From: Clostridia bacterium
Lineage (GTDB): Bacteria; Bacillota; Clostridia; Oscillospirales; Acutalibacteraceae
Assembly: GCA_017524165.1 (NCBI GenBank)
Contig: JAFWUH010000050.1
Location: 56,553 to 120,552, forward strand
Length of the DNA stretch: 64,000 nucleotides
Direction: 5' to 3'
Shown here: in pieces, positions 1-6,660 of the stretch
Layout of the letters: the number at the start of each line of letters is the position of its first letter
Position numbering within the stretch: the stretch's first letter is position 1
Notes under the pieces: generated by a model
What the model was told of the DNA's origin: nothing
Seen by the model: only the letters and a program-made list of their open reading frames with translations
Database searches by the model: none
Program-made: the position numbers and the translations under genes

Positions 1-826
1 AGGCGCCGTTGGCGCAATCCAAACCGATACGCAAATGCTTATAGGAATTGGAAGCCAGCGAAATCAGATAACCGACATAACGGTTTCTACCCGAAACATA
101 GTCCACGATACAACCGATGCGTTCCCGCTCTGCCCACGGCAAATCGTCGCCTTCGACACCCAGGGTTTTCAGGTCGCCGTCGATATAGGCTTCGATCAAC
201 GCGGTGGTCGCGTCATCGAGCTTTTCGCCGTAACGGTTAATGACCTTAATCCCGTTATCATAGAAGGGGTTATGGGAAGCGGTGATCATGATACCGCAGT
301 CAAACTCATCCTGACGGGTGACATAAGAAACGCTGGGGGTCGTGGTTACATGCAGCATGTAAGCATCGGCGCCCGACGCGGTGATACCGGCAACCAACGA
401 GTATTCTAACATATAGCTGGAACGGCGGGTATCTTTTCCGATCACGATTTTCGGACGGTAACCCATATTTTTACAACCCGACAGCGCCGAACCGTAGTAC
501 CAGCCCAGGAACCGACCGACACGATAGGCATGCATGGAAGTCAAATTCAGGTTTGCTTCGCCGCGGAAACCGTCGGTACCGAAATATTTGGTCTTGATCG
601 GTTCGCCCGGCAAATTACGGTGAATAATCTTATTCTCTTTTAACAGCTCATCCGCCGTTACATGAAACATTTCGCAAATCTGCAAAATTTTGTCGATCTG
701 CGGCTGAACCTGATCCATTTCCCATTTGGAAATAGATTGACGGGAAACCGCCAGTTCTTCCGCCAGAATTTCCTGTGAAATATTTGCGGCTTTGCGTAAA
801 TGAGTGATTTTCTCTCCGATGGTCAT
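1..826 (-). CDS. glmM: HTH-domain/phosphoglucosamine mutase fusion (GlmM), 3' end cut by window edge
   Basis: GlmM interconverts glucosamine-6-phosphate and glucosamine-1-phosphate in UDP-GlcNAc synthesis. The frame opens at ATG 826 behind GGAGGA and stays open for 275 codons to the window edge. Residues 1 to about 63 form an XRE/Cro-type helix-turn-helix (SQEILAEELAVSRQSISKW, then a typical last helix ending DELLKE). A linker of about 15 residues leads to the mutase domain, which begins near residue 80 with YFGTDGFRGEAN. The phosphoserine loop ITASHNP puts the catalytic serine at about residue 184. Both domains are in one frame without a stop, which I checked codon by codon. Ordinary GlmM starts at the TDGxRG segment and has no DNA-binding domain. 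The gene lies 19 bp after the LbH acetyltransferase-like gene, so the two are probably co-transcribed. The family call is firm; a regulatory role for the HTH is inference. Confidence 0.9.
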   Translation of the reverse strand, partial: MTIGEKITHLRKAANISQEILAEELAVSRQSISKWEMDQVQPQIDKILQICEMFHVTADELLKENKIIHRNLPGEPIKTKYFGTDGFRGEANLNLTSMHAYRVGRFLGWYYGSALSGCKNMGYRPKIVIGKDTRRSSYMLEYSLVAGITASGADAYMLHVTTTPSVSYVTRQDEFDCGIMITASHNPFYDNGIKVINRYGEKLDDATTALIEAYIDGDLKTLGVEGDDLPWAERERIGCIVDYVSGRNRYVGYLISLASNSYKHLRIGLDCANGA

Positions 827-845
827 CTTGTTCGTTCCTCCTCAA

Positions 846-1511
846 TCAGTCTTTCTTTACGATATCGTCCTGGCGCTTGAAGATACTGCCGCCCGGCACA
901 TATCCTCTGACCATAGACAACGGATAGATTTGGGATTCTTTGCCGATGATCGTGCCGGGATTCAATACCGAACCGCAACCGACTTCGACGCAATCGCCTA
1001 AAATGGCACCGAATTTCTTCAATCCGGTTTCCACCTTTTCTCCGTTATGCTTTACGGTAACCAGGGTTTTATCCGACTTCACATTGGAAGTGATCGATCC
1101 GGCACCCATGTGCGAACGGTAACCGAGAATAGAGTCGCCGACATAATTATAATGGGGAACCTGAACATTATCAAACAAAATCACATTTTTTAATTCGGTC
1201 GAGTTGCCGACCACGCAATTTTTCCCGACCAGTGCATTGCCGCGAATAAAGGCGCATTGGCGCACTTCGGTATCCTCCCCGATAATGCAGGGGCCGGTAA
1301 TTGAAGCGGTCGGCGCGATCTTTGCCGAACGGGCGATCCAAATATTTTCACCCTTCTTTTCAAAAACCTCCGGATCCAGCGTTTCGCCCAATTGGCAAAT
1401 AAACGCGCTGATTTTCGGCAGAACCTCAAAAACCTGCTCAACGCCTTCCAAAAGCGGTGCCGCCGCGGTATGCTCTAACGAAAAAAGTGCTTGCGACGAA
1501 AAATCGTTCAT
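846..1511 (-). CDS. Left-handed beta-helix GlmU-like acetyltransferase, no uridylyltransferase domain
   Basis: This 221-residue protein has a helical N-terminal section (about 1-55) followed by hexapeptide-repeat strands (IAPTASITGPCIIGEDTEV, and later CGSVLNPGTIIGKESQIYP), which fold as a left-handed beta helix. The middle part, NYVGDSILGYRSHMGAGS, resembles the acetyl-CoA region of GlmU-type enzymes. The N-terminal Rossmann pyrophosphorylase domain of full-length GlmU is missing. Proteins of this size are common in Clostridia and are often labelled UDP-N-acetylglucosamine pyrophosphorylase, which their domain content does not support. The adjacent GlmM suggests a role as glucosamine-1-phosphate N-acetyltransferase, but another acyl-acceptor is possible. 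The start at 1511 has GAAAGGG nine bases upstream. Confidence 0.8.
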   Translation of the reverse strand: MNDFSSQALFSLEHTAAAPLLEGVEQVFEVLPKISAFICQLGETLDPEVFEKKGENIWIARSAKIAPTASITGPCIIGEDTEVRQCAFIRGNALVGKNCVVGNSTELKNVILFDNVQVPHYNYVGDSILGYRSHMGAGSITSNVKSDKTLVTVKHNGEKVETGLKKFGAILGDCVEVGCGSVLNPGTIIGKESQIYPLSMVRGYVPGGSIFKRQDDIVKKD

Positions 1512-1527
1512 AGTTTACAACCCTTTC

Positions 1528-1553
1528 TTATTCTCAAGATAATTCAAGAATAA
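1528..1553 (-). promoter_or_regulatory. 26-bp imperfect inverted repeat in the amino-sugar operon leader
   Basis: Seven-base arms TTATTCT and AGAATAA are perfectly complementary and separated by 12 bases; the inner part pairs partly as well. The site lies just upstream of the GAAAGGG ribosome site of the LbH gene and about 70 bases below the proposed promoter. It could be an operator for the HTH domain fused to GlmM, or an RNA hairpin beside the ribosome site. Function is inferred. Confidence 0.45.
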
Positions 1554-1622
1554 TCGCTTTTGTTTTCTTTTTCAAGCAACAAAAGTTTGAATTTTTTGCG
1601 CTTTGAAGTTGCGTCTATGAAC

Positions 1623-1652
1623 ATTATATGCGGTTTTTACACAAAAAATCAA
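1623..1652 (-). promoter_or_regulatory. Sigma-A promoter of the LbH-glmM operon
   Basis: On the minus strand a TTGATT -35 box (1652-1647) is followed after 18 bases by a perfect TATAAT -10 box (1628-1623). This gives an untranslated leader of roughly 105 bases that contains the inverted repeat at 1528-1553. The rest of 1512-1731 is AT-rich with nothing else recognisable. Confidence 0.7.
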
Positions 1653-1731
1653 GAAAAACTTTTCTTTTTAGTAAACAATTATTGACGATTGTCAAAATGT
1701 TTTCCGTGTTTTGCCAGATGTAAACCTTTGT

Positions 1732-2031
1732 TTACACCCATAGTCCGATCAATAAAGCGGCGAGCGACGCCGCCGTTGCAACGACAATCAACGGCAGGTC
1801 GAAATACGCCAACAAAAGCGCCACCGCTGTACCGACTGCCGCGGTGACCGTATTGCCGGTGGCATAAAAAATCGCCGGAAAGGTCATGGCAGACAGAACG
1901 GCATAGGGCAGATAAAACATGAAGCTCCGCCAAAAAGGTGACCGGATCTCCTTGCGGAAGAGGGTAAACGGAAGCATGCGGATCAGATAGGTCACCCCCG
2001 CCATCACCGCAATATAAATGCCGACACTCAT
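1732..2031 (-). CDS. azlD: Branched-chain amino acid exporter small subunit AzlD
   Basis: This 99-residue, strongly hydrophobic protein has about three membrane spans and the AzlD signature near the N-terminus (YLIRMLPFTLFRK). With AzlC it forms a two-component exporter of branched-chain amino acids or their analogues. The start overlaps the azlC stop by four bases (ATGA), so translation is coupled. Length is normal for the family. Confidence 0.9.
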   Translation of the reverse strand: MSVGIYIAVMAGVTYLIRMLPFTLFRKEIRSPFWRSFMFYLPYAVLSAMTFPAIFYATGNTVTAAVGTAVALLLAYFDLPLIVVATAASLAALLIGLWV

Positions 2032-2726
2032 GCTTTTTCCTCCTTTATCGGAAAGAAAAACGCCGCCAGGATACAGGTAATCAGCGCGCTGAGGATCACC
2101 GCAAAGCCGCCGGAGATAAAGGGCGTGGCATAGGTAAATAAAACGCTGAAGCCTGCCGCGATGAGGATCACCGCAATCAACGGATGGGATTTTTTACAAG
2201 GCGGAATGATGATCGCGATAAACATACCGTAGAGCATCAGCCCGAGCGCGTCGGAAAGAACCGGCGGCAACAGTTGTCCCGCCGCCATGCCGCCCAAAAA
2301 GGTGCCAGTCGTCCACCCGATCAGCGGGGTAAAAATCAATCCTTGCATATAACGGGGTGTGAGCGGTTCTTTCTGCGCCATCGCCACGGCATAGATTTCA
2401 TCGGTGATGCCAAAGGCGACCAGCATGCGTTGAGGGGTGTGAAAAGAACCGTCCAGCTTTTGCGTGAGGGAGACTGCCATCAGCGAATACCGGAGATTGA
2501 TCACCAATTGGGTCAGGATCATCTCGATCAAGGTGCCGCCGGCGGCAATGATTCCTATGCCTGCCGCCTGTCCGGCAGAGGTCAAGTTGGTCAGCGAAAT
2601 GCCGACCGCCGCCAACACCGAAAGCCCCGCTTTGACTGCTAAAATACCAAACCCAAAGGACACTGAAAGATAGCCGAGGGCAATCGGCATGCCGTCTGCC
2701 ATTCCCTTTACAAATTTTGAGCGCAT
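2028..2726 (-). CDS. azlC: Branched-chain amino acid exporter large subunit AzlC
   Basis: This 232-residue membrane protein has the AzlC opening (KGMADGMPIALGYLSVSFGFG) and several hydrophobic spans. The ATG at 2726 is preferred over an upstream TTG in the same frame because AAAGGAGGGGG precedes it at the right distance. The gene begins only 49 bases after pflA ends and no promoter is obvious there, so azlCD may be read through from pflB-pflA. Confidence 0.9.
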   Translation of the reverse strand: MRSKFVKGMADGMPIALGYLSVSFGFGILAVKAGLSVLAAVGISLTNLTSAGQAAGIGIIAAGGTLIEMILTQLVINLRYSLMAVSLTQKLDGSFHTPQRMLVAFGITDEIYAVAMAQKEPLTPRYMQGLIFTPLIGWTTGTFLGGMAAGQLLPPVLSDALGLMLYGMFIAIIIPPCKKSHPLIAVILIAAGFSVLFTYATPFISGGFAVILSALITCILAAFFFPIKEEKA

Positions 2727-2775
2727 AGATCCCCCTCCTTTCGACAAATCGGTTTGTACTGCTTAACGCATTGTA

Positions 2776-3492
2776 TTATGATAGATAAATCGGATCAATC
2801 AGCGCGGTTAAAGATTGCATGGTTTCGTGTGAGGGCGAATCGGTTCCCTTTAACGGAAAATCCAGCCCCAACGCGGTATACTTTTCCTCGCACAGATTGC
2901 GAAACGGCAACAATTCTACCTTTTTAACGCAGGAAAACCGCCGTGCGACATCGTTCAATTGCCGCACCGACGCTTCCCGGTCGGTTTTTTGTGGAATAAT
3001 AACCCGCCGAAGCCAAACGGGGATCTGCCGCCGTTCCAGTTCGGTCAAAAACCGCTCGGTTTGCGCCAGACTGCCCCCGACGAACCGCCGGTAGTCCGCC
3101 TCAGTCGGGTATTTATGGTCTAAAAGCACCAAATCGGTATAGGTCAGCACCGCTGCCGCCGATTCGTTCCAAAAGCACCCTGAAGTATCGAGTGCCGTGT
3201 GTATTCCGTTTTCTTTGAGCCGACGGAACAACTCCGCCACAAAAGGCGCCTGCAAAAGCGGTTCGCCGCCCGAAACGGTCACCCCGCCGCGTTGCCCGAA
3301 ATAACCGCGAAACCGCAGAATTTTGCGGACAAGCGGCTGTACCTCGACGGCTTCCCCGCCGTTCGGGTCCCAGGTATCGGGATTGTGACAACAGATACAC
3401 CGTAAAGGACAGCCCTGCATAAAGACGACACACCGCACGCCCGGCCCGTCTACCGTGCCGAGACTTTGAAAAGAATGAATCCGTCCCTGCAT
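2776..3492 (-). CDS. pflA: Pyruvate formate-lyase activating enzyme
   Basis: This 238-residue radical-SAM enzyme installs the glycyl radical on PflB. The 4Fe-4S motif CxxxCxxC is seen as CPLRCICC near residue 29, followed by HNPDTW typical of PflA. The GGE segment (TVSGGEPLLQ) for SAM binding follows. The gene begins four bases after the pflB stop, so the two are one transcriptional unit. Activity is oxygen-sensitive, which fits an anaerobe. Confidence 0.95.
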   Translation of the reverse strand: MQGRIHSFQSLGTVDGPGVRCVVFMQGCPLRCICCHNPDTWDPNGGEAVEVQPLVRKILRFRGYFGQRGGVTVSGGEPLLQAPFVAELFRRLKENGIHTALDTSGCFWNESAAAVLTYTDLVLLDHKYPTEADYRRFVGGSLAQTERFLTELERRQIPVWLRRVIIPQKTDREASVRQLNDVARRFSCVKKVELLPFRNLCEEKYTALGLDFPLKGTDSPSHETMQSLTALIDPIYLS

Positions 3493-3496
3493 CGCG

Positions 3497-5725
3497 TTAA
3501 ACGGTGGTGTGGAAGGTACGCATGATCACTTCACGCTGTTGTTCACGGGACAGCTTGCAGAAGTTGACGGCATACCCCGAAACACGGATGGTCAGGTTGG
3601 GATACTGTTCGGGATGCTCGTACGCGTCGAGCAGGGTCTCGCGGCGCATCACATTGACATTCAGGTGGTGCGCGTCATTCAGAAAATATCCGGTCAAGAT
3701 GGCAACCAAATTTTCGATCCGTTCTTCCCCGGTCTTGCCGAGTGCCTCGGGAACAATGGAGAAGGTGTTGGAAATGCCGTCCGACGCCGAAGAATACGGC
3801 AATTTGGAAACCGAATTGAGCGACGCCAACGCGCCGTTATGTTCCCGGTTGTGCATCGGATTGGCGCCCGGGGCAAACGGTTCTCCCTTTTTGCGGCCGT
3901 CGGGTGTGGCGCCGGTCTTCTTGCCGTACATGACATTGGAGGTAATGGTCAGCGCCGACAGCGTATGCCGCGCGCCGCGGTATGCCGGCGTCTTTTTCAG
4001 CTCTGCACGCACCGCGACCAATAAGTTTTGCGCAATTTCGTCCACGCGGTTATCGTCGTTGCCGTATTTCGGGAAATCGCCGACCGTATCAAAATCAACA
4101 ATGATCCCGTTTTCATCACAAATCGGGGTAACCTTGGCATACTTGATCGCCGAAAGCGAGTCGGTAATTACCGAAAGTCCCGCCACCCCGAACGCCATTA
4201 ACCGTTGTACATCGGTATCGTGCAATGCCATCTGGGTTTTTTCATAGGCATATTTATCGTGCATATAATGAATACAGTTCATGGTATTCACATAAAGCCG
4301 GCAGAGCCAGGTCAAATAGATGTTGAACCGCTCGATCACCTTGTTGTACTCCAAAACCCCGCCGGTCATCGGCTCCATCTGCGGTCCCAAGCGGGTACCA
4401 AACATATTATCCACGCCGCCGTTCAATGCCAACAGCAACAGCTTTGCCAAATTGGTCCGTGCACCGAAGAACTGCATCTGTTTGCCGACCTTCATGGCGG
4501 AAACACAACAGGCAATGGCATAATCGTCCCCGAACCGGGCACGCATCAGGTCATCGTTTTCGTATTGGATCGCATCGGTATCGCAGGAAATCCTGGCGCA
4601 GAATTTTTTAAAGGGTTCCGGCAGCGCGTGACTCCACAATACCGTCAGATTCGGTTCGGGCGCGGGACCGAGATTATACAGCGTCTGCAACATCCGGAAC
4701 GAGGATTTGGTCACCAGCGTTTGGTGGTTCAGATTCATCCCGCCGATGCTTTCGGTGATCCACATCGGATCGCCCCCGAACAGTTCGTTGTATTCCGGCG
4801 TGCGCAGATGCCGTGCGCAACGAAGCTTCAGCACCAAATCGTCGATCAACTCCTGCGCGCCGCGTTCATCCAGAACGCCGTTCTTTAAATCGCGTTCAAT
4901 ATAAATATCAAAGAAGGTCGAGGTGCGGCCAAACGACATGGCGGCACCGTTTTGCTCTTTATTGGCGGCTAAATAGCCGAAATAGGTCCATTGAATCGCC
5001 TCACGCGCGTTGGCGGCGGGCCGGGAAATATCGTAGCCGTACATCTCAGCCATCTTTTTCAATTTGTTTAAGAAGGCAATCTGCTGGTACAGTTCCTCGG
5101 TCAGACGGATGTTCTCCACGTCCATCAAATTCTCGCCCAGCGCCGCCTTATCTTTTTCTTTTTCAACGATTAGATAATCCACCCCGTAAAGCGCAATGCG
5201 ACGGTAGTCCCCGATAATACGGCCGCGGCCGTAGGCGTCGGGCAGTCCGGTCAACAGCGCGCAATGGCGCGCCGCCTTCATTTCGTCGGTATAGACGCGG
5301 AAAACACCGTCGTTATGGGTGGTGCGGTAGGTGAAGAACTCTTCAATCTTATCCGAAAGCTTATAGCCGTACGCCTCGCAAGCCGCCCGCGCCATGCGAA
5401 TCCCCCCGAACGGGTTGACGCCGCGCTTCAACGGCTCGTCGGTCTGCAAACCGACGATCAGATCCTCTTTGGTCAGATAGCCCGGCTGATAATTGCACAG
5501 CGAAGAAACGGTTGAAACATCGACCGAAAGCACGCCGCCGCGCGCCTGCTCTTCCTTTTTTAACCGTTCCAATTCCGCAAGCGCCCGTTCGGTACGCGCG
5601 GTGGGTCCGGTCAAAAAAGACGCGTCCCCCAAATACGGCGTATAGTTTTTGTCGATAAAGTCACGGACATTGACGCCCTCCTGCCATACACCGAATTGAA
5701 AACCGTTCCATTGCTCAAAAGTCAT
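3497..5725 (-). CDS. pflB: Formate acetyltransferase (pyruvate formate-lyase)
   Basis: This 742-residue glycyl-radical enzyme converts pyruvate and CoA to acetyl-CoA and formate. The active-site cysteine pair is present ([18 protein letters not shown]), and so is the C-terminal radical loop RVSGYAVNF, with the glycine near residue 717. Length and motifs match the true PFL clade rather than glycerol or choline-type relatives. Transcription starts at a strong sigma-A promoter (5884-5912) and passes through a ZTP-riboswitch-like leader with an intrinsic terminator. Formate output is therefore likely tied to one-carbon folate status. The pflA gene follows immediately. Confidence 0.97.
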
Positions 5726-5763
5726 GTTTCTTCCCCGTTTCTTTGTGTTTTATCCGAATAAGA

Positions 5764-5866
5764 CAAAAGGGTAACCCGAAAAACGAGTTACCCAGACGGT
5801 CGGTATCCTATCAACCGATCCCGCGCACTGTGTCGATTCACATTCCGTCAGCACAGAATCAGCCGG
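5764..5866 (-). ncRNA. ZTP (pfl-motif) riboswitch with overlapping terminator, upstream of pflB
   Basis: Read on the minus strand, P1 pairs CTGATTC (5862-5856) with GGATCGG (5821-5815), using G-U pairs. The next hairpin has arms TGTG and CACA (5842-5839, 5832-5829). A pseudoknot pairs GACGG (5849-5845) with CCGTC (5799-5795), followed by CTGGGTA. The class consensus as I know it has GGCGG paired with CCGCC followed by UGGGCA, so these substitutions are compensatory. The conserved TGGGTAAC is also the 5' arm of an intrinsic terminator (arms GGGTAAC and GTTACCC, 5793-5769) ending in TTTTGTCTT. Ligand binding and termination are therefore mutually exclusive, the usual on-switch layout. ZTP/ZMP rises when 10-formyl-tetrahydrofolate is short, and PflB makes formate for that pool. 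Confidence 0.85.
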
Positions 5867-5883
5867 AAAATATTTCCGAAAGT

Positions 5884-5912
5884 ATTGTAACCTTTTTTTT
5901 ACAGTTTGTCAA
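5884..5912 (-). promoter_or_regulatory. Sigma-A promoter of pflB
   Basis: A perfect TTGACA (5912-5907), a 17-base spacer and TACAAT (5889-5884) lie on the minus strand. The box overlaps the last codons of the upstream nucleosidase gene. Transcription should begin near 5877, just before the riboswitch, giving a leader of about 150 bases. Confidence 0.85.
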
Positions 5913-6660
5913 GTAAATTTCCCGGGTTTTTTGTCCAGGCGTCCAAGAGGTCAAAACAGAATTTTTGACCGTATTCCGCCGCGCTTTTCCGAAACGGTTG
6001 ATCGGGATACAGCTCATTATTACTGATGACCCGCACCGCCAGCATCGGCAGAGAAAACTGTTTACAGACCTGCGCCACAGCGGCGCTTTCCATCTCTTCG
6101 CAGTCGGAATGTAATCTTTCGTGCAAAAAGGCGATCCGGTCGAGTTCCCGATTCCACATGTCGCCGCTGACCATCGTTCCGCGTTTCAGCACACCGTGTT
6201 TGTAGGGAACCGCCATTGCCGCCTGCAATAACCGCCCGTCGCTGTGGAAAACAGCCGTGCGGGTCAATTTGCCGTCGGTCACCGTCTGCGCGCCGATATA
6301 CTGCCAATCCAAAACGGAAATGCCCTCTCCGCTCGCGCGGCGCGGCGTCACATAGGACGCATATTCCACGATGTTTTCGCCCAAAACGATATCGTTCTGC
6401 CGGATCTTCGGGTGATGTCCCCCGGCGGTACCCTGCAAAATCATACAGCAGGGATGCAACCGTTCCATCGCCACGACGGCGGCTGCCGCGGCGTTGACCG
6501 CCCCGATCAGGCACCGAATGACCGTAACGGGATACCCGTTGACGGTACCGCTTTGGAAACGGTAGTCGCCCACCGCCGTTTCGGCGGCGTTTTGCAGCCG
6601 CGCGGCAAGATATTCATATTCACAATCCATCGGACAAAGCACCGCGATCGGTTTCGGCAT
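5899..6660 (-). CDS. MTA/SAH nucleosidase-family protein (PNP/UDP phosphorylase fold)
   Basis: This 253-residue protein belongs to the nucleoside phosphorylase superfamily. The N-terminal PMDCE block aligns with MEEE of MTA/SAH nucleosidase and keeps the catalytic-base glutamate. The ribose-binding EMESAAVAQVC is clear. Where E. coli MTAN has the general-acid aspartate in RAISD, this protein has RVISNNE, so asparagine replaces aspartate. That may shift substrate or activity; MqnB-type futalosine hydrolases also have ISN there. It follows mtaD by 41 bases in the same direction, which supports a role in S-adenosylhomocysteine or methylthioadenosine breakdown. Exact substrate is uncertain. Confidence 0.8.
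   Translation of the reverse strand: MPKPIAVLCPMDCEYEYLAARLQNAAETAVGDYRFQSGTVNGYPVTVIRCLIGAVNAAAAAVVAMERLHPCCMILQGTAGGHHPKIRQNDIVLGENIVEYASYVTPRRASGEGISVLDWQYIGAQTVTDGKLTRTAVFHSDGRLLQAAMAVPYKHGVLKRGTMVSGDMWNRELDRIAFLHERLHSDCEEMESAAVAQVCKQFSLPMLAVRVISNNELYPDQPFRKSAAEYGQKFCFDLLDAWTKNPGNLLDKL

Follow-up and report, generated by a model that had tools for sequence, protein, structure and literature searches.

A helix-turn-helix domain fused to the amino-sugar enzyme GlmM in uncultured bacteria and its likely operator

Why should GlmM, an enzyme that supplies the peptidoglycan pathway and is considered essential, carry a DNA-binding domain of its own? The question is raised by a gene at the edge of the 64-kb stretch of DNA analysed here (the window; its genome is denoted G000), which encodes GlmM behind a helix-turn-helix (HTH) of the XRE/Cro type. 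NadR, BirA and RbkR are trigger enzymes with a DNA-binding domain, and their metabolite-dependent binding is known. HTH-GlmM resembles them in joining a pathway enzyme to an HTH, so that by analogy feedback on its own pathway would be the expected role; it differs in enzyme and in pathway, and metabolite-dependent binding is a property of theirs. HTH-GlmM would extend the trigger-enzyme idea to a new enzyme and pathway; in that part of the literature open to our search, no report of such a fusion, or of such an operator, was found.

The fused gene, its protein and its spread

The minus-strand frame that begins with an ATG at 826 is open over positions 2-826 and leaves the window edge without a stop (Table 1), and in the genome (1.53 Mb, 88 contigs, 98.6% complete) it continues uninterrupted into an ORF of 540 aa (L004:9757-11379). 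In its product HTH_3 (PF01381) is complete (38.8 bits against a cut-off of 23, profile positions 4-55 of 55), domains I-IV of PGM_PMM occupy residues 80-530, with II-IV outside the window, and the whole scores 501.3 bits against NCBIfam TIGR01455 (glmM), above the curated cut-off of 447.55. TASHNP, DGDADR, GEQSGH and RQSGTEP are all present, and in the 45 fused proteins extracted the corresponding [TS]ASHNP, DGDxDR, GExSGH and RxSGTEP are kept in 45/45 with a search pattern that allows variants (a stricter one gave 24/45). The preliminary description of the window, which had reported a complete HTH in frame with a GlmM that keeps TDGFRG and ITASHNP, is borne out on both points. The fusion itself is certain, and profiles and motifs place an intact enzyme and a DNA-binding part on one polypeptide, which is one of the marks of a trigger enzyme. 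A search of G000 with PGM_PMM_I found three genes, and since the other two ORFs (570 and 511 aa) resemble HTH-GlmM weakly, it is the only GlmM found in that genome. As a member of the GlmM family it is ordinary in its score, four domains and catalytic motifs and differs in the N-terminal DNA-binding domain; 44 PDB sequences match it at E 1e-6, and in none of them does the best-matching stretch extend over the HTH.

Table 1. Features of the window at and upstream of the HTH-GlmM gene
Feature	Position	Strand	Basis
HTH-GlmM gene, 5' part (275 codons)	1..826	minus	ORF list, profile search; 797 bp further outside the window
GlmM domain I (PGM_PMM_I), residues 80-216, with TASHNP active-site motif	179..589	minus	Pfam, motif search
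Variable linker, residues 64-79	590..637	minus	alignment of 45 fused proteins, dN/dS
XRE/Cro-type helix-turn-helix, HTH_3, residues 10-61	644..799	minus	Pfam, conservation, dN/dS
Recognition region VSRQSISKWE, residues 27-36	within HTH_3, 644..799	minus	window protein
221-aa left-handed beta-helix (LbH) protein, like the acetyltransferase half of GlmU	846..1511	minus	ORF list, profile search
Predicted -10, TATTCT	1547..1552	minus	by eye, inference; 17 bp after the -35, inside the 1528-1553 repeat
Predicted -35, TTGAAA	1570..1575	minus	by eye; 36 bp after the CAAC-arm start, as in most clade relatives
O2, second operator-like site TCAAACTTTTGTTGC, 9/12 constrained positions	1576..1590	minus	leader 15-mer scoring
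O1, degenerate operator copy GCAACTTCAAAGCGC, 9/12 constrained positions	1598..1612	minus	leader 15-mer scoring

Separate HTH and GlmM products, or a sequencing error hiding a stop between them, had been named beforehand as findings that would undo this picture, and both points come out in favour of the fusion. Between residue 61 and FGTDG, 4/45 fused genes have an ATG in frame and 25/45 have any of ATG, GTG or TTG, and a Shine-Dalgarno-like sequence precedes such an internal start in 1/45 (L102) against 41/45 for the fused start; internal ATGs and Shine-Dalgarno-like sequences being so rare by comparison, a separate GlmM product appears unlikely. A sequencing artefact is ruled out because full-length, stop-free fusions recur in 29 of the 61 genomes of a genus sample, to which G047, split over two contigs, may be added. 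The fusion was likewise found in 19/200 genomes of a family sample (G000 and G209, cut by a contig start, included, and with a further split case in G087) and in 28/295 of an order sample (including G000 and G054); the three samples overlap, and full-length matches were counted from printed rows. Among the matches listed in named records, 46/80 loci are fused; all 46 are metagenome-assembled (MAG) or uncultured records, 11 of them titled Erysipelotrichaceae, Bacillales or Acholeplasmatales and the remainder Clostridia, Oscillospiraceae, Lachnospiraceae, Ruminococcus or uncultured bacterium. HTH-GlmM is carried by many uncultured gut and rumen bacteria, and the taxonomic spread that the preliminary description had proposed to map reaches from Clostridia MAGs to records under those other titles. 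A tree of the catalytic part alone, from 45 fused and 35 unfused GlmM (L130, the thirty-sixth unfused one, duplicates L112 and was left out), places all fused rows in a single clade (support 100/96) whose 55 rows also include 10 unfused ones. The fused/unfused label changes five times on the tree, against a mean of 26.3 after shuffling; three changes are all that the starred branches force. A single gain with about four losses fits the tree, the change count itself giving no direction.

Selection on the head and an operator-like palindrome

Constraint along the fused protein is uneven. Across the 45 fused proteins VSRQSVSKWE (residues 27-36) is almost invariant, and at no position of the linker (residues 64-79) does identity reach 95%. 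Median dN/dS was taken over the usable ones among 263 pairs of low catalytic divergence: it is 0.085 for the HTH (61 pairs), near that of the enzyme (0.077; 166), and about 0.47 for residues 64-76 of the linker (133). The recognition region, at 0.016 (167), is more constrained than any other part tested. All these ratios are rough because synonymous sites are near saturation. They indicate that the HTH is under purifying selection, as is the enzyme, and the linker much less so. XRE helices of the VSRQSVSKWE type are common in XRE proteins and generally resemble each other, so the invariance of the helix alone is no proof of a fixed target. Beside unfused GlmM, a free HTH was found as one weak match (L134, 40% identity) among the 35 unfused loci.

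A candidate target, GCAAC-N5-GTTGC, was first spotted by reading leaders side by side. In 68/81 fused genes and 0/69 unfused relatives the palindrome, CAACYNNNRGTTG and most often GCAACYNNNRGTTGC, is found in the 300 bp upstream. Searched as CAACN5GTTG over that distance, it is present in 43/45 fused and 0/35 unfused leaders of the first set and, in the named loci, in 25/36 and 0/34 (the 36 remain of the 46 fused records once L230, for want of upstream DNA, and nine whose leaders the first set already contains are set aside); the 400 bp before the FGTDG codon of the unfused genes also lack it (0/34 and 0/35). CAACN5GTTG ranks first among the 256 x 13 four-base palindromes tried, and 300 mononucleotide shuffles gave it in a mean of 0.15, and at most two, of the 81 fused leaders. 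These leaders, being related by descent, are not independent trials, and the phylogenetically independent pairs number three (five with unsupported branches), each of which goes the expected way (sign test p 0.25). On this comparison the operator-like palindrome goes with the HTH and is absent without it.

All 68 sites have Y...R as their inner pair, 66 have the outer G and 58 the outer C (A in the other 10); the flanks, T before and A after, are much less conserved. An exact site is missing from 13/81 leaders, namely L004 (the window genome), L085, L213, L216, L228, L237 and seven others that belong to the 11 records titled Erysipelotrichaceae, Bacillales or Acholeplasmatales; L085 and L216 hold near matches, and L237 has a site 367 bp upstream. 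Among the matches listed, exact GCAACN5GTTGC is unique in 7/34 fused genomes (G013, G024, G025, G026, G038, G039 and G153), where it stands before the HTH-GlmM gene, and the other fused genomes contain further copies, many of them within ORFs.

The palindrome is found before other genes too. It stands upstream of free-standing XRE genes, some reached via the palindrome (L203, L204, L331, L340, L347, L348) and others via the HTH (L200, L202), and just upstream of three genes that join an XRE head to an ADP-ribosylglycohydrolase (PF03747 with PF01381; L187:1278-2855, L188:1188-2810 and L343:1536-3110). These fusions are like HTH-GlmM in head and matching palindrome and unlike it in their unrelated enzyme. 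Several such XRE and fusion loci share a layout of a TTGG-like -35 region and then a TATAAT-like -10. Among 31 non-glmM site loci, chosen by eye from the matches listed and therefore no census (L198-L202, fetched for their HTH match, are excluded), nine have the site upstream of an XRE gene, five in other intergenic DNA (the terminator-like copy at nagA among them) and 17 inside an ORF. Read by eye from these picked loci, the palindrome would serve this XRE type in general as its operator, an idea on which the searched part of the literature yielded nothing; and because palindrome and promoter layout are shared with these free XRE genes, we read the fusion as the capture of a whole XRE gene head. 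HTH-GlmM shares with XRE-family autoregulators (HTH_3) the HTH type, the palindrome, the promoter layout of their free genes and the genome group, and differs from them in having a metabolic enzyme as its effector part.

In most leaders a predicted promoter is close to the site. Of 47 site-bearing leaders scored automatically (the 43 of the first set with L229, L231, L232 and L233), 23 have a best -35 that begins 36-38 bp on from where the CAAC arm starts. In four clade B leaders (L091-L094) it begins at +10, GTTGACA serving as arm and -35 at once, with TATAAT 16-17 bp on, and in the four Erysipelotrichaceae/Bacillales leaders the site precedes the ATG by 27-28 bp. The best automatic promoter is upstream of the site in 7/43 first-set leaders and at +64 and +86 in two, and in these leaders its placement is uncertain. 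This shifting position, upstream of the -35, over it or near the start codon, would suit a repressor better than an activator.

In the window's own leader, O1 and O2 are the two best 15-mers, 22 bp apart, the distance at which relatives score highest on average. A lone 9/12 site means little, since 58 positions across the 64-kb window score 9 or more, and the argument rests on a pair in place. Elsewhere in G000 there are four exact GCAACN5GTTGC copies, none with the Y...R centre. The likely operator is 1576-1612, an element that stands before the LbH gene and has stayed with the operon through a change of gene order, but is degraded and may bind weakly. The preliminary description had proposed aligning leaders in search of a shared palindrome, and CAACN5GTTG answers to that; it had pointed for the operator to the inverted repeat at 1528-1553, which exists but spans the predicted -10 and whose 7-bp arms recur in 0/44 other fused leaders, and this candidate was rejected. 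Its broader idea of a DNA-binding, self-regulating enzyme finds good comparative support in the conservation of the HTH and the co-occurrence of the palindrome, with the conserved element moved to 1576-1612; that such an enzyme could report flux or substrate state is plausible.

Readings of the fusion

Comparison across genomes establishes that the fusion exists, that its catalytic motifs are intact, and that its HTH is under purifying selection and co-occurs with the operator-like site; it makes DNA-binding autoregulation by HTH-GlmM likely. As a whole, we regard it as probable that glmM took over an autoregulated XRE head and that its product binds the promoter of its own operon, probably repressing it. 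An autoregulated XRE gene would have supplied promoter, operator and HTH, joined in frame to glmM; the product would remain a working GlmM and, probably as a dimer, bind GCAACYNNNRGTTGC sites in the promoter of its own amino-sugar operon. Repression seems the better guess than activation, and GlmM and its partners (a GlmU-type acetyltransferase and NagB, with GlmS in some species) would thus be produced to need. GlcN-6-P, GlcN-1-P or the bisphosphate could control DNA binding, as could the enzyme's phosphorylation state. This last element, a metabolite-gated feedback regulator of amino-sugar supply whose DNA binding follows active-site occupancy or phosphorylation, we put tentatively at somewhat under an even chance.

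Autoregulation by abundance alone, the HTH capping expression without metabolite sensing and the GlmM part merely supplying a dimer, is possible if on the doubtful side. The same operator stands before XRE genes that have no enzyme part, and the linker varies in sequence and length, with no hint of tight allosteric coupling; yet retention of the head on GlmM in 45/55 clade rows is then left without a reason, although simple dosage control could provide one. That the palindrome is bound by another XRE protein, leaving the fused HTH without a DNA target, seems unlikely: the palindrome is common to other XRE genes, and these genomes hold further XRE HTHs, but the site accompanies fused and not unfused glmM (68/81 against 0/69), and purifying selection on the fused HTH is strong. 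An HTH kept as a structural or oligomerisation module, its DNA binding lost, would account for the degenerate sites of the window itself, but hardly for a recognition region that is the most constrained of the parts tested, or for the co-occurrence with the operator, and we think it quite improbable. Very improbable, too, is a palindrome acting as an RNA hairpin or as the terminator of the upstream gene. It can make a 5-bp stem with a 5-nt loop, and a copy before nagA in L197 resembles a terminator stem followed by T's; at most fusion genes, however, it is located before the predicted -35 or overlaps with it, its flanks (a preceding T, a following A) are the reverse of a terminator's, and positions 1-6000 of the window match no Rfam family. 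That assembly or annotation wrongly merged two genes is a negligible prospect, for although all 46 fused named records among the matches listed are MAG or uncultured, the identical, stop-free, in-frame join in many genomes and on different contigs contradicts it.

Amino-sugar setting and what an HTH-GlmM could mean

The LbH gene is the first of the presumed operon, 19 bp before HTH-GlmM, which is thus second in the window genome and first at most fused loci; NagB follows 22 bp downstream (L004:9024-9734; 268.5 bits against a cut-off of 236.9). GlmS above cut-off was not found in G000 (98.6% complete) and is present in 12/34 fused and 6/20 unfused genomes. Because that genome has nagB in its glmM operon and no GlmS above cut-off, NagB may there work biosynthetically, making GlcN-6-P. 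Across 33 fused genomes (G022 was left out), 13 have nagB in the locus without GlmS, eight have neither, nine GlmS only and three both, so that nagB partly accompanies the absence of GlmS, which is no more than suggestive of its replacing GlmS. In G045 and G024, glmS directly follows HTH-GlmM. Farther off, at 2776-5725 of the window, two adjoining minus-strand ORFs of 742 and 238 aa resemble, by eye from the translation, pyruvate formate-lyase and its activating enzyme.

The glmS ribozyme (RF00234) is a feedback device on the amino-sugar pathway in Bacillus. It acts on the same pathway but is RNA-based. It was found in 0/34 fused and 1/20 unfused genomes, and the notion that the fusion replaces it was dropped for want of association (over 40 genomes, with stricter filters), the ribozyme being so rare in unfused relatives too. 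A metabolite-gated HTH-GlmM, if real, would do the ribozyme's job where GlmS is often missing and nagB is in the operon. It would also be one of a wider set of metabolic enzymes with a ready-made XRE promoter-operator-HTH head, the ADP-ribosylglycohydrolase being another; a head common to free XRE genes, together with this second enzyme fusion, suggests that an enzyme can gain transcriptional feedback in one step. A GlmM with its own regulator head and a predicted 15-bp operator makes the control of cell-wall precursors testable with one protein and one DNA fragment.

Regulon members beyond the operon were sought at glmS. Its start was located in 11 of the 12 glmS loci of fused genomes (all but L307), and one of these 11, in G046, has a site within 600 bp upstream, 84 bp before the gene and with promoter-like sequence (TIGR01135 assignment above cut-off). 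A nagA (L197, above cut-off) was discarded as a member, its palindrome and following T run forming a terminator-like stem. Some loci merit mention in their own right. L187 and L188 have a ribokinase-like ORF, named by eye, after the HTH-ADP-ribosylglycohydrolase fusion. Contig G026:C61 carries a fused and an unfused GlmM (L065 and L101) about 20 kb apart, with the palindrome upstream of the fused one only, and G046:C34 and G046:C35 (L093, L094, L306) hold two fused GlmM copies, each with the palindrome, as well as the palindrome-bearing glmS.
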